From: an uncultured Nitrososphaera sp.
GTDB taxonomy: Archaea > Thermoproteota > Nitrososphaeria > Nitrososphaerales > Nitrososphaeraceae
Reading direction: 5' to 3'
Length of the DNA stretch: 6,574 nucleotides
NCBI RefSeq assembly: GCF_946478925.1
Contig: NZ_CAMLDP010000088.1
Span: forward strand, 1 to 6,574
The notes under the pieces were generated by a model. That model worked only from the letters and a program-made list of their open reading frames with translations. It was not told where the DNA came from and ran no database searches. Both the position numbers and the translations under genes were made by a program. Below, one piece after another: positions 368 through 5,310 of the stretch. Position 1 is the stretch's first letter; each line of letters opens with the position of its first letter.

Positions 368-1699
368 TTAGCCGTTTTTTATGAAATTGTTGTAAACAGC
401 TACCGCTTCCTCTTCATCCTTTGCGCCAACTATGGTCGCCGCGCCGCTCGACAAAAAGCTTACAGACATCTTGCCCGCGTTTGTCGCCGTGATGCCGAGC
501 GTCCCTCGCGTCCTGACCTGGTAGCCGAGCGTCTCGGCTGTCTTGCTGATGCCGCCAAGGTTGACCGGCACGGGGTTTGCCGGCGTGATGGTCCATGTCC
601 TCTTGCCCCGGTCCCTGCCGCACAACTCCTCGATTATCAGCTCCTTTGCCGTCACCTGCTGGCCGTTTATAGTCCGCGCCGTCCCGCAGGCCGGGCACTC
701 GTCCTGCCTTGCTATCTGGACCTTTTCAAACGACAGCTCGTTGAGGTCGACGTACAGCAGCTTGTTCACAAGCGTCGGCTGCTGGCCCGTTATTATCTTG
801 ACCGCCTCCGACACCTGGATTCCGCCCACCAGGTACAGTATCGACGGATGTACGCCTTCTGTGCTGCATGCCGGCATCTCGTCTTCGTTGAGCGCCGGGA
901 ACAGGCACCGCAGGCACGCAGTCTTGTTCGGGATTATTGTAGTCACAGAGCCGAGCATCCCGATAGCGCCCGCGTAGATGAGCGGAATATTGTGCTTGAT
1001 GCACGCGTCGTTGAGCGCATAGCGCGCGTCGACGCTGTCCAGCGCGTCTATTATCAGGTCAAAGCCCTTGACGATGCTCTCCGCCGTGTATTTCGTAACT
1101 GACGTTGGCACAGGCTCGATCTCGACGGTAGGATTCATCTTGCGCAAGCGGTCAGCGGCGGCTTCGACCTTTACCCTGCCGATGTCGTCCTCCGTGTAGA
1201 GGTGCTGTCTGTGCAGGTTTGTTATCTCAATGACGTCCCTGTCGACGATGCGCAGCTTGCCGACTCCCATCGCCACCAGCTGCGTCACCACCGGGTTTCC
1301 TATCCCTCCGGCACCGACGACGCACACCTTGGCCGCGCGGAGCTTTTCCATCCCCTCAAAGCCTATCTCCTCAAGCATCACCTGCCTCGAATAGCGCTGC
1401 AGCTCCTCGCTTGTCAGCTCGGCGCCTCCTGCCACTGCCGGCAGTATGTAGACGTTGTCGCCGTCCTTGAGCGCGGTCGTCATGCCGCCAGAAAATCGCA
1501 TGTTCTTGCCGTTCACGTAGATGTTGATGAGCGAGCGGGGCTTGCCGTTATGGTCAAATACGCGGCGCTTAAAGTCGTCGCCCATCTGCTCCGACACCTT
1601 GTTGAACGCGTCTTGCAGATCCAGAGCCTCTATGGGGAGCTTTTTCTCTCCCTGGCCCTTGTTCAATACCGACGGTACTGTAAATTCCACTTTTGCCAT
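368..1699 (-). CDS. CysO/MoaD-like sulfur carrier fused to MoeB/ThiF E1-like adenylyltransferase
   Basis: A 443-residue, three-part protein. Residues 1-92 are a MoaD/ThiS/CysO ubiquitin-fold carrier: NIYVN at 59-63, RFSGG at 68-72, and DGDNVYILPAVAGG at 79-92, ending in the Gly-Gly that is adenylated and thiocarboxylated in this family. Residues 93 to about 340 are the E1-like domain: RYSRQ (102-106), the ATP loop GAGGIG (129-134), IVDRD (151-155), NLHRQ (161-165), K177, DALDS (218-222), zinc pairs CLRC (262-265) and CPAC (335-338), and a candidate catalytic Cys278 in ACSTEGV, the position of the ThiF/MoeB active Cys. Residues 345-443 form an extra domain I cannot assign. The family activates a carrier C-terminus for sulfur transfer to cysteine, thiamine, molybdopterin or tRNA. 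Here the Gly-Gly is internal, so a free carrier would need cleavage. GGTGAT overlaps the stop of the upstream gene and lies about 8 bases before this ATG, suggesting translational coupling. Confidence 0.93.
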   Translation of the reverse strand: MAKVEFTVPSVLNKGQGEKKLPIEALDLQDAFNKVSEQMGDDFKRRVFDHNGKPRSLINIYVNGKNMRFSGGMTTALKDGDNVYILPAVAGGAELTSEELQRYSRQVMLEEIGFEGMEKLRAAKVCVVGAGGIGNPVVTQLVAMGVGKLRIVDRDVIEITNLHRQHLYTEDDIGRVKVEAAADRLRKMNPTVEIEPVPTSVTKYTAESIVKGFDLIIDALDSVDARYALNDACIKHNIPLIYAGAIGMLGSVTTIIPNKTACLRCLFPALNEDEMPACSTEGVHPSILYLVGGIQVSEAVKIITGQQPTLVNKLLYVDLNELSFEKVQIARQDECPACGTARTINGQQVTAKELIIEELCGRDRGKRTWTITPANPVPVNLGGISKTAETLGYQVRTRGTLGITATNAGKMSVSFLSSGAATIVGAKDEEEAVAVYNNFIKNG

Positions 1700-1708
1700 C
1701 TTATAATA

Positions 1709-2926
1709 TCACCCGATCATCGCCGAGACAGCGGCTGCGTCCGGCTTGACAGCGACAAGTTTCGGCAGCACCCCTATAATTGCTTCTGTGGCCTTGAGCC
1801 CGTTGCCGGTGACATAGCAGACCACCTTTTCGTCCTTCTCTATGCTGCCTTCTTCCACCAGCTTTTTCAGCACGCCCACTGAAACGCCGCCGGCCGGTTC
1901 TGTGAATATGCCCTCAGACTGCGCAAGCATCATTATCCCGTCCCTTATCTCGTCGTCGCCGACTTCCTCCGCAAGGCCGCCGTACTGCTTCAATCGCTTC
2001 AGCACATAGATGCCGTCACCCGGGTCTCCGATTGCGAGGCTCTTGGCTATCGTCTCCGGCCTTTCTACTGGTATCACTTCGTCAGAGTTGCGCTTGAACG
2101 CGTCTACCACCGGCGCGCACCCGTGCGGCTGCGCCGCCACTATTTTCAGGTTCTTGACGCTTCCAATCAGTCCAAGGGCGTGCAGCTCTTCAAAACCCTT
2201 GCAAATCGCGTTGAGCATCGCGCCCGAGCCTACAGGCACTATCAGCCTGTCAGGCACCTCCCAGCCAAGCTGCTCCGCCACTTCGTACGCGAGCGTCTTT
2301 GAGCCTTCCACGTAGTAGGGCCTCATGTTGATGTTGACGATGCCGTAGCCCTTGGAGTCGCCGATTATCGAGGCGACCCTGTTTGCGTCGTCGTACGTGC
2401 CCTCTACTGCGACAAACTCGGCGCCGTACGAAAGCGCTTGCGCTATCTTGACATGTTCAATATCAGAAGGAGCGAAAATGTAGCACGGCAGGTCTGCCTT
2501 TGCAGCGTGCGCTGCTGTCGCAGACGCAAGGTTGCCAGTCGACGCGCACCCTACTGCCTTTAGTTTCGTCTCTTTGGCCCTTGAAACCGCGACTCCGGCG
2601 GGCCTGTCCTTGAACGAGAACGTCGGGTTGACCGAGTCGTTCTTGATGTAAAGGCTCTTCAATCCTAGGCGCCCGCCCAGCTTGTCCGCGTGCTGCAGCG
2701 GAGTCAGCCCCGCGTTGAGGCTGACCACGTTTGCCTTGTCCGCGACGGGAAGGAGCTCGAAATATCGCCAGTAGGTCTTTTCCCTGAGGTCAAACGTGTG
2801 CCTGTTTATCGACACGTCTTTGTACGTCACGTCCAGAGGGCCGAAACAATCTTCGCAAACGTACCGGAATTGCGGCTCGTATTCCCTGCCGCATTCTCTG
2901 CACCTTAATGACTTGATACTTCCCAT
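1709..2926 (-). CDS. thrC: Threonine synthase-type PLP enzyme with zinc ribbon
   Basis: A 405-residue fold-type II PLP enzyme, the usual length for archaeal threonine synthase, which turns O-phosphohomoserine and water into threonine and phosphate. It opens with a zinc ribbon (C9, C12, C24, C27), common in archaeal ThrC. NAGLTPL (71-77) precedes the PLP site NPTFSFKDR (100-108), with K106 the Schiff-base lysine. STGN (129-132) should bind the substrate carboxylate, PVGSGA (231-236) the PLP phosphate, and VTGNGLK (372-378) is the conserved C-terminal loop. It is the first gene of an operon with the sulfur-carrier/E1 gene 9 bases downstream. The family is certain. The substrate is less so: related fold-type II enzymes such as CysM take sulfur from a protein thiocarboxylate, and the partner gene carries just such a carrier. 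A weak AAAGG precedes the ATG, and a TATA-like box lies at 2976-2983. Confidence 0.93.
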   Translation of the reverse strand: MGSIKSLRCRECGREYEPQFRYVCEDCFGPLDVTYKDVSINRHTFDLREKTYWRYFELLPVADKANVVSLNAGLTPLQHADKLGGRLGLKSLYIKNDSVNPTFSFKDRPAGVAVSRAKETKLKAVGCASTGNLASATAAHAAKADLPCYIFAPSDIEHVKIAQALSYGAEFVAVEGTYDDANRVASIIGDSKGYGIVNINMRPYYVEGSKTLAYEVAEQLGWEVPDRLIVPVGSGAMLNAICKGFEELHALGLIGSVKNLKIVAAQPHGCAPVVDAFKRNSDEVIPVERPETIAKSLAIGDPGDGIYVLKRLKQYGGLAEEVGDDEIRDGIMMLAQSEGIFTEPAGGVSVGVLKKLVEEGSIEKDEKVVCYVTGNGLKATEAIIGVLPKLVAVKPDAAAVSAMIG

Positions 2927-3893: not shown

Positions 3894-3990
<97 letters not shown>

Positions 3991-3993
<3 letters not shown>

Positions 3994-5310
3994 CTTTGTA
4001 TGCATTGTATGTTGCTGTTGTAATCCTGATTTTTTTTCCATGCCGTACCTGTGCAGCGGCTTGGTCAGATGCCGGTGCGCCTTGGGCGTAGGCACGTACA
4101 GCCCAGGCTTTATCGCCCGCTCTTTTTGCACCATTATTTTCTGCGCCTTTTGGTCGCGGAACTTGCATTTTTCGCACTGGTAGCCCTTGTTTTTGCCCTC
4201 AGACTTCATGCGCTTTCCGCACATTTTGCACAGCGGGTTTGCAACGTCGTAGACGGGCGCCAGCTCTTTTACCAGCAAGTATTCGACGTTAAGTATCTTG
4301 GGATGGAGAGTCGTGCCCTTGCGCACACCTACTCCTATCTCGATGAGGTCGCCCGGCGCGAGCGCGACTGCAATGTTTGCAAGGCCGGTCGGCTCGTATA
4401 TTGCCGCCGGCATCTCGGCGCCGGCCTGCTCGACTGAAAACATCACGTGCCCTCCCTCTATCGCGTTCGGCCTGCCCTTTACCCTGCACCTGACGTACCC
4501 TGCCGTGTACGCCTTGGCCGCGCGCAAATCAAGCTCGTTCTGCAGGTGCATGTTGGTGCCCTGGTTTGAGCGGAACACCATGTGGCCCTCCAGCTCTTCT
4601 GACGGCGCAATCCTGGACATGGCCGACTGCACCACCTCCGGGCTTTCGCCCCGGACGCCAAAGAACACAGGGTCGGGCCCGTGCGGCGCAATAAGCACCC
4701 TTTCGTGGTTCTGGTCATAGTTGTTGAACGTGTACGGGAATGTTTCCTTGCTGAACCTGATTATACTGTCATTGTCCACGACCCGTGGCGTGCCGCAGTT
4801 TTCCGGCGTGCGGTACGCAATGAGCTCAAACGTGTGGTCGCCGTCGAGGGCGCAGCCCATCGCCCCAAGCGAGCCCACGAGCCCCTGCCCGTTGCCAAAC
4901 GTCCAGAACCTTATCCCGCATTCTCTTGCCACCTTTTCGGCCTGCTGCCGGCTGGACACGTCGCACATGGCAAATGCGCTGAACTGCTTCAATTTTTCCG
5001 GCAAAACCTCGCCTTCCATAAACGCCACGCCCGGGTTTGCCCCGCTGCCGATTGCAGAGCCTTCCTCCACCGCCTGCCTGACGTAATCGACGACCCTGCC
5101 TACGTCATTTACTCTTGCCCGCAGGCAGACTGCCCCGTTGCCACGAGTCTTCCAGGGGATGTTGGGGTTGAGCCGTATTAGCAACGGATAATCGACAAGT
5201 TCTGCCTCCATCGTCTTTTTCAGCTCCTCTGCGACCCGGAACGCAAGGTGGGTCGTGCACCGGCCCGCCCTAGAGTCGGTGTCGTCAAAGGCGATGTGGA
5301 GGAGCATCAT
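3991..5310 (-). CDS. tiaS: tRNA(Ile2) 2-agmatinylcytidine synthetase TiaS
   Basis: A 439-residue archaeal enzyme that uses ATP to attach agmatine to C34 of the CAU-anticodon tRNA-Ile2 so that it reads AUA. Family features in order: the N-terminal FDDTDSRAGRCTTHLA (8-23); a central part with WTFGNGQGLVGSLGA (136-150) and the ATP-phosphorylating region with NQGTN (249-253); an OB-fold-like section with PTGLANIAV (307-315) and PGDLIEIG (319-326); a zinc ribbon (C361, C364, C379, C382); and the basic tail IKPGLYVPTPKAHRHL (400-415), typical of the family. Start ATG 5310 (next ATG is the second codon); TATTAAG at 5338-5343 suggests an almost leaderless mRNA. Its TAG stop (3991-3993) lies inside the 3' end of the convergent initiator tRNA gene. 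The last 18 residues (KKSGLQ...) coincide with an A/T-rich stretch that may be the tRNA terminator. Confidence 0.96.
4030..4037 (+). terminator. T8 run downstream of tRNA-Met(i), inside tiaS
   Basis: Eight T on the plus strand, 37 bases after the mature 3' end of the tRNA. It is the first long T-run downstream and a likely terminator of tRNA transcription. On the other strand the same bases encode the two lysines near the C-terminus of TiaS. Confidence 0.4.

Follow-up and report, generated by a model that had tools for sequence, protein, structure and literature searches.

In Wolinella, HcyS-HcyF-MetY is said to form homocysteine from a carrier thiocarboxylate, the carrier reportedly being made as a precursor with residues after its Gly-Gly (GG) motif. 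For Streptomyces, work of Hasebe and colleagues in 2024 reportedly showed that MetO is a carrier that needs thiocarboxylation, in a pathway said to occur in other bacteria and in archaea as well. Its partner MetM is the Streptomyces homocysteine synthase, which converts O-phosphohomoserine to homocysteine (PMC12172450, crediting Hasebe et al. 2024), and the metM gene of S. albulus has an upstream S-adenosylmethionine (SAM) riboswitch (PMC12172450). Here we analyse a stretch of 6,574 nucleotides (the window) from an uncultured Nitrososphaera sp., on whose minus strand the gene of a ThrC-like pyridoxal 5'-phosphate (PLP) enzyme, ThrC2, is followed 9 bases later by that of a fusion protein joining a CysO-like carrier to an E1 and a further domain at the C terminus; both reading frames lie where the original prediction, made from the letters of this DNA, had placed them (Table 1). 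On comparative sequence evidence, we consider it likely that the pair makes homocysteine from O-phosphohomoserine by way of a carrier thiocarboxylate, after the carrier has been cut from the E1. The homocysteine from which ammonia-oxidising archaea make methionine is thus probably the product of a ThrC-like enzyme that takes its sulfur from a carrier.

The original prediction had suggested that a thiocarboxylate might take the place of water on O-phosphohomoserine, a reaction that corresponds to the one reported in 2024 for MetM/MetO, a system that it did not name. It had known of no characterised three-in-one layout of this kind in an archaeon; the fusion is already in print, however, and bacteria offer a counterpart to its association with a ThrC-like enzyme. 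A Ubl-E1-TBP fusion of Thaumarchaeota has been described, its C-terminal domain being named TBP-like by Makarova and Koonin in 2010 (PMC2948915), and a 'MoaD-MoeB' fusion was counted in 61 of 98 Thaumarchaeota assemblies and read as serving molybdopterin synthesis (PMC11237513). Judged by domain order and lineage as given in the cited passages, these are the same protein family as the window fusion. The term 'threonine synthase' occurs 0 times in PMC2948915. We found no publication linking the archaeal fusion with a ThrC-like enzyme in a search that left most subscription literature uncovered, and we make no claim that the link is unpublished. The chemistry has already been reported for Streptomyces; what is added here is the grouping of the PLP partner from archaea with a gene of metM type, a gene-order history, a second type of ThrC and a gap in the homocysteine genes that the pair would fill.

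ThrC2 and its metM-type relative

ThrC2 matches the PALP family over residues 69-374 (Pfam), and the original view of it as a PLP enzyme of the threonine synthase type agrees with the NCBIfam models TIGR00260 (301.3 bits against a cut-off of 167.1) and PRK08197 (310.9 against 303). The best 25 of its 38 NCBIfam matches are headed by threonine synthases and include no CysK/M model, so that a PLP partner of the cysteine synthase family, such as belongs to the CysO-CysM system, was not found here. Whether these genomes hold a second thrC had been left to be seen; a PALP family search found a second ThrC-type enzyme, ThrC1, in six of six genomes. In G124, the closest whole genome, the second copy likewise passes TIGR00260 (187.9 against 167.1), and in deeply branching lineages the ThrC1-like copies adjoin a gene read as homoserine kinase (L080 and L082-L085, the neighbour in L084 being identified by profile).

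The two types differ in signature residues. With L076 set aside, 13 of 14 ThrC1 rows have STGNT (L078 has STGNM) and 13 of 14 have EGQKT (L118 has EGQKA), at the positions where ThrC2 has STGNL and EGSKT; L076 and six plasmid-borne ThrC rows have motifs that differ from both types. A 47-row tree unites every one of the 24 ThrC2 rows, the window enzyme among them, with a gene of the actinobacterium Nonomuraea gerenzanensis in one clade (25 rows, support 100/99), and this clade stands apart from the other ThrC-like rows. An ordinary threonine synthase would be the only ThrC of its genome and would have STGNT and EGQKT. The window enzyme has STGNL and EGSKT instead, and a second ThrC is present in the six genomes searched; although it passes TIGR00260, the window enzyme is not the ordinary threonine synthase. 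As the window enzyme and the Nonomuraea gene both pass TIGR00260, the name given by that model cannot separate the two functions. One genome of 1.5 Mb (G142) contains several ThrC-like genes (six matches, L064 and L078 among them), of which L078, with its STGNM, has an intermediate motif.

The Nonomuraea gene was found by searching a plasmid protein collection with the PLP enzyme. This gave 98 records, the best being that of N. gerenzanensis with 46.6% identity (an 11.85-Mb record labelled as a plasmid) and the next listed having 38.0%. Ahead of the gene is a SAM riboswitch (RF00162, 68.7 bits, the gathering score being 44.4), and after it comes a gene for a carrier of 91 residues ending in AVAGG; a second carrier of the same organism lies beside a PALP gene read as CysM. 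Like the MetM/MetO system, the window locus has a ThrC-like enzyme beside a carrier with GG, which is terminal in the relative and internal in the window, and the metM-like gene clusters with the window enzyme. For this grouping the reference is a relative with metM layout on a long branch and not the assayed Streptomyces enzyme. The systems differ in that the window carrier is fused to an E1, from which it would have to be cut, whereas the Nonomuraea carrier is free and has no E1 after it in the stretch read. The riboswitch, a regulatory feature outside the chemistry, is a further difference.

The carrier-E1 fusion and its Gly-Gly site

The original prediction took the tight coupling of the two genes to suggest joint function, and the pair is not confined to one genome. 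Among 250 sampled genomes of the class (E up to 0.001), the fusion has matches in 204 and the PLP enzyme in 249; among the weaker of these there must be E1s of other kinds and paralogues of the PLP enzyme. A ThrC-like gene lies directly upstream on the same strand in 145 of the 150 fusion rows listed, which come from 149 genomes, with a median gap of 7 bp over the adjacent rows. The other five comprise two at contig ends (G223, G159) and three with no ThrC row listed (G189, G138, G202); direct reading of the loci showed the pairs of G189 and G138 to be adjacent. The fusion of G124 is 98% identical to that of the window. As this layout recurs across the class, it is not a matter of chance.

Within the fusion, Pfam places ThiS at residues 27-92 and ThiF at 103-336, and the best Foldseek matches of the predicted model (mean predicted local distance difference test score, pLDDT, 75.7) are ThiF and MoeB. 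The E1 cysteines 262, 265, 335 and 338, together with Cys278, are kept in all 11 aligned fusion rows, and the position of Cys278 presumably has the catalytic role of its counterpart in ThiF. The E1-E2 models of PADLOC match over the E1 part only and are taken as general E1 similarity. The original prediction did not include the C-terminal domain (about residues 354-441), and no rhodanese domain was found in the fusion with Pfam. Outside the E1 core, Cys360 (window 620-622), in the motif EELCGR, is also invariant in 11 of 11 aligned fusions and is a possible sulfur relay site.

The likeness of the carrier to CysO, noticed at first from NIYVN, RFSGG and ILPAVAGG, held up in a search with L059, an archaeal relative that exists as a free carrier. 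Its first match is M. tuberculosis CysO (3dwg_C, E 1e-14), whose aligned chain has all three motifs, and it is followed by 4n6e_B, a 'ThiS/MoaD family protein' (2.6e-14), a SAMP1 homologue (2e-9) and Ta0895 (5.1e-9). Chains labelled MoaD-related or molybdopterin converting factor subunit 1 are far weaker (4.5e-5, 5e-5, 0.0092 and 0.11). A carrier tree, which had been proposed as a check on MoaD ancestry, did not join the carrier to MoaD, although it is poorly resolved. The CysO-CysM-Mec+ system of M. tuberculosis offers the closest solved carrier and, in CysM, a PLP partner of fold type II, and an E1 makes the thiocarboxylate there (PMC3227635), as is proposed for the window pair. It differs in that CysO is free and CysM, of the cysteine synthase family, acts on O-phosphoserine, whereas the window enzyme is ThrC-like.

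The arrangement of the carrier gene varies with lineage. Searching 20 chosen genomes with the PLP enzyme and reading the loci by eye, we found a carrier gene directly after ThrC2 in 14, of deeper lineages (L058, L059, L061-L070, L072, L073). This separate carrier stops exactly after GG in 12 of the 14; that of L072 has six more residues and that of L068 was left unscored owing to unreadable bases. An E1 gene comes next in 11 of the 14, L070 and L072 having other neighbours and L063 ending first. Among the other six genomes, G240 has the fused type, the ThrC gene is cut at a contig end in G158, G159, G103 and G152, and the best locus of G137 has no carrier. Within the carrier clade of the ammonia oxidisers, the carrier is again a separate gene in G061 and G092, with a tail of 8 or 15 residues past GG. 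The related loci L087, L088 and L089 (of G061, G092 and G073) show the carrier as a separate overlapping gene in the first two and fused to the E1 in the third, and each is followed by a gene read as encoding a small cysteine-rich protein. Read in this way, the gene-order history runs from separate to fused and, apparently, to split again.

A pattern search gave 47 distinct carrier strings scored as fused and two more that are fused but unscored; as the pattern requires GG, it was not used to count GG conservation. In the fused strings, 6 to 45 residues lie between GG and the E1 motif of RYSRQ type, in places as serine or glycine runs. A processed precursor would be expected to look like this, with GG constant and the linker behind it free to vary. 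With GG present in 11 of 11 aligned fusions, a low-confidence junction in the predicted model (pLDDT below 50 at residues 88-109, as also in the Cys278 loop at 276-281) and JAB genes in 30 of 30 genomes, the pattern is suggestive of a carrier precursor cut at GG. There is a precedent in MoaX of M. tuberculosis, in which the fused MoaD must be cut after GG to work (PMC4326299). MoaX differs in having MoaE as its partner and molybdopterin as its product, and the abstract of PMC4326299 does not identify the cleaving protease.

Genome context and alternative readings

We examined 30 genomes of the class that have a listed fusion; they were picked mostly for their large contigs, share ancestry and come without completeness figures. 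Homoserine kinase (TIGR00191) is over its cut-off in 30 of 30, so that O-phosphohomoserine should be present. No conventional homocysteine gene was recognised in these genomes. HcyBio was found in 0 of 30 by a search that was positive in 3 of 14 controls, Methanocaldococcus jannaschii and Methanosarcina acetivorans among them, and the HcyBio route was rejected on this count. Among the listed matches to Cys_Met_Meta_PP (PF01053), the family of MetY, none is full-length; the highest score is 43.5 bits and the longest match covers 177 of 381 positions. Two of the open reading frames concerned were read, L154 as an aspartate-type aminotransferase with a part resembling chorismate mutase and L150 as a DegT-like aminotransferase, neither being MetY by that reading, and on these matches a MetY or transsulfuration route was tentatively set aside. 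The original prediction had named a complete conventional cysteine and methionine pathway as a difficulty for itself; in these 30 genomes no conventional homocysteine gene was recognised, although genes of the cysteine synthase type do exist.

Sulfur genes lie close to ThrC2 in one genome. On one strand of G187, a PALP gene truncated where the stretch read ends, TauE, 3'-phosphoadenosine 5'-phosphosulfate reductase, ATP sulfurylase, a sulfite-reductase-like gene and TusA precede ThrC2, and carrier, E1 and a helix-turn-helix protein follow it, an order that ties the ThrC2-carrier-E1 trio to sulfate assimilation in this genome. Prok-JAB is over its cut-off in 30 of 30 genomes, with two or three matches each, and both JAB proteins of G124 match it and contain HSHP. 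For the ThiS family, too, each genome has two or three matches; in G124 one belongs to a Ubl-Cgi121 fusion, the second protein of that family there. PALP genes of CysK/M type or related to it are found elsewhere in G124 and encode proteins of 334 and 529 residues. The former lies directly downstream of a TusA gene (L142:473-1763), a pair that is possibly a second carrier-fed sulfur enzyme. PALP proteins of 516-529 residues (L140:757-2346, also L146 and L147) were seen as well; in that of L140, about 150 C-terminal residues have no Pfam model, and the tail is rhodanese-like by eye.

We infer cleavage, thiocarboxylation, sulfur donor, substrate and product as follows. The carrier-E1 fusion would be translated as a precursor, and a protease, probably a JAB protein of the genome, would cut after Gly91-Gly92 and free the carrier. 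The E1 would then adenylate the terminal glycine of the carrier, and Cys278 with a persulfide donor would convert it to the thiocarboxylate; candidate donors are TusA, which lies beside the trio in G187, or a cysteine desulfurase. Finally, ThrC2 would eliminate phosphate from O-phosphohomoserine and add the sulfur of the carrier instead of water, giving homocysteine.

In a different account, ThrC2 would simply be a threonine synthase or deaminase, sharing its operon with a general carrier system, the fusion, that serves tRNA thiolation or protein modification. Archaeal carriers do serve tRNA thiolation and SAMPylation (PMC2948915), the SAMP1 and UbaA models match the fusion below cut-off (NCBIfam), the E1 may also activate the Ubl-Cgi121 fusion of G124, and a cyanobacterial protein 51.6% identical to MetM is reported as a threonine synthase and deaminase (PMC12172450). 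We nevertheless regard it as improbable: it accounts neither for the conservation of the pair nor for the second ThrC, the operon with sulfate-assimilation genes or the lack of recognised homocysteine genes, and ThrC2 is without the STGNT and EGQKT of ThrC1. It is less probable still, and in our view very unlikely, that the pair makes cysteine, with ThrC2 acting on O-phosphoserine or a similar substrate as CysM does with CysO. CysO is the best solved relative of the carrier, neighbourhoods with carriers, E1, JAB, SirA, sulfur genes and cysteine synthase have been described (PMC1779556), and an operon of carrier, cysteine synthase and JAB is also seen in Tsukamurella (L170). However, ThrC2 clusters with ThrC-like enzymes and the metM-like gene, G124 has its CysK/M-type or related genes elsewhere, and Nonomuraea keeps a separate carrier for its CysM-like gene. 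That the fusion is a MoaD-MoeB for molybdopterin with the PLP gene as an unrelated neighbour, as the 2024 survey of archaeal fusions files it (PMC11237513) and as MoeB models matching below cut-off might suggest, is hardly credible and was already disfavoured, since MoaE occurs in only 2 of the 30 genomes, both times beside a separate ThiS-family gene, and MoaD chains are far from the best solved carrier relatives.

Several observations weigh against homocysteine synthesis by the pair. PF01053 has a match in 30 of 30 genomes, over its cut-off in 26. MetE (PF01717), sought as the consumer of homocysteine, was found in 0 of 30 in a search that did not extend to MetH, so that some other type of methionine synthase must be at work. 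The SAM riboswitch was not found in the window, L001 or L069 at the gathering score. The window enzyme bears the threonine-synthase name over the NCBIfam cut-offs, and the activities of the cyanobacterial MetM relative mean that family membership does not prove the reaction. The branch of the Nonomuraea gene is long and its position within the ThrC2 clade unsure, the carrier trees are weak (7 of 26 inner branches starred), and the release of the carrier from the fusion is itself predicted.

Features of the window and meaning of the proposed route

The features of the two genes are collected in Table 1. Of the N-terminal cysteines of ThrC2, C24 and C27 are invariant and C9 and C12 are present in at least 90% of 19 aligned rows, and the pairs may bind zinc. 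The role of Lys106 as the PLP lysine is expected from homology to threonine synthase.

Table 1. Features of the ThrC2 gene and the carrier-E1 fusion gene in the window
Feature	Position	Strand	Basis
Carrier-E1-C-terminal-domain fusion, 443 residues	368-1699	minus	Open reading frame list, Pfam
CysO-like carrier domain, residues 1-92	1424-1699	minus	ThiS family 34.8 bits; ends ILPAVAGG
Gly91-Gly92, expected carrier terminus once cleaved	1424-1429	minus	Invariant in 11/11 aligned fusions; site where free carriers of deep lineages stop
E1 (ThiF/MoeB-type) adenylation domain, residues 103-336	692-1393	minus	PF00899 268.9 bits; Foldseek
Cys278, aligned with the cysteine of E. coli ThiF, corresponding loop	866-868	minus	Invariant in 11/11
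C-terminal alpha/beta domain, residues 354-441	377-640	minus	Secondary structure of predicted model
9-bp gap between stop of PLP enzyme gene and ATG of fusion	1700-1708	minus	
ThrC-like PLP enzyme, 405 residues (ThrC2, MetM-like), upstream gene of the pair	1709-2926	minus	PALP 247.6 bits
N-terminal cysteine pairs C9, C12, C24, C27, zinc-ribbon-like	2846-2902	minus	19-row alignment
Lys106 in SFKDRP, expected PLP lysine	2609-2611	minus	Invariant in 19 rows
Signature STGNL (ThrC1: STGNT)	2528-2542	minus	25/25 ThrC2/Nonomuraea rows
Signature RPYYVEGSKT (ThrC1: NPFRxEGQKT)	2294-2323	minus	EGSKT in 25/25 ThrC2/Nonomuraea rows

Elsewhere in the window, a tRNA-Met (CAT) gene lies on the plus strand (3894-3993) with a 25-base insert in its T loop; ARAGORN misses it in the window and finds it once the insert is removed. 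The gene ends at the 3' end of a convergent TiaS gene (3991-5310).

Oceans and soils hold large numbers of ammonia-oxidising archaea, which need no organic nutrients for growth. A broader proposition, which we advance tentatively and rate a little short of evenly balanced, is that all newly made homocysteine in this group of archaea comes by way of a carrier precursor borne on its own E1, a system that would have replaced every conventional route. One carrier would be made per E1 and released by a JAMM protease as ubiquitin precursors are, so that carrier supply would be coupled to its activation. If the proposed function of the pair is true, it would fill the homocysteine gap seen in the 30 genomes of ammonia-oxidising archaea, and two annotated families, 'threonine synthase' and 'MoaD-MoeB', would be reassigned. 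The MetM/MetO route of Streptomyces would then appear to be widespread in archaea, and the natural fusion of a carrier with its E1 would allow processing and thiocarboxylation to be studied jointly.

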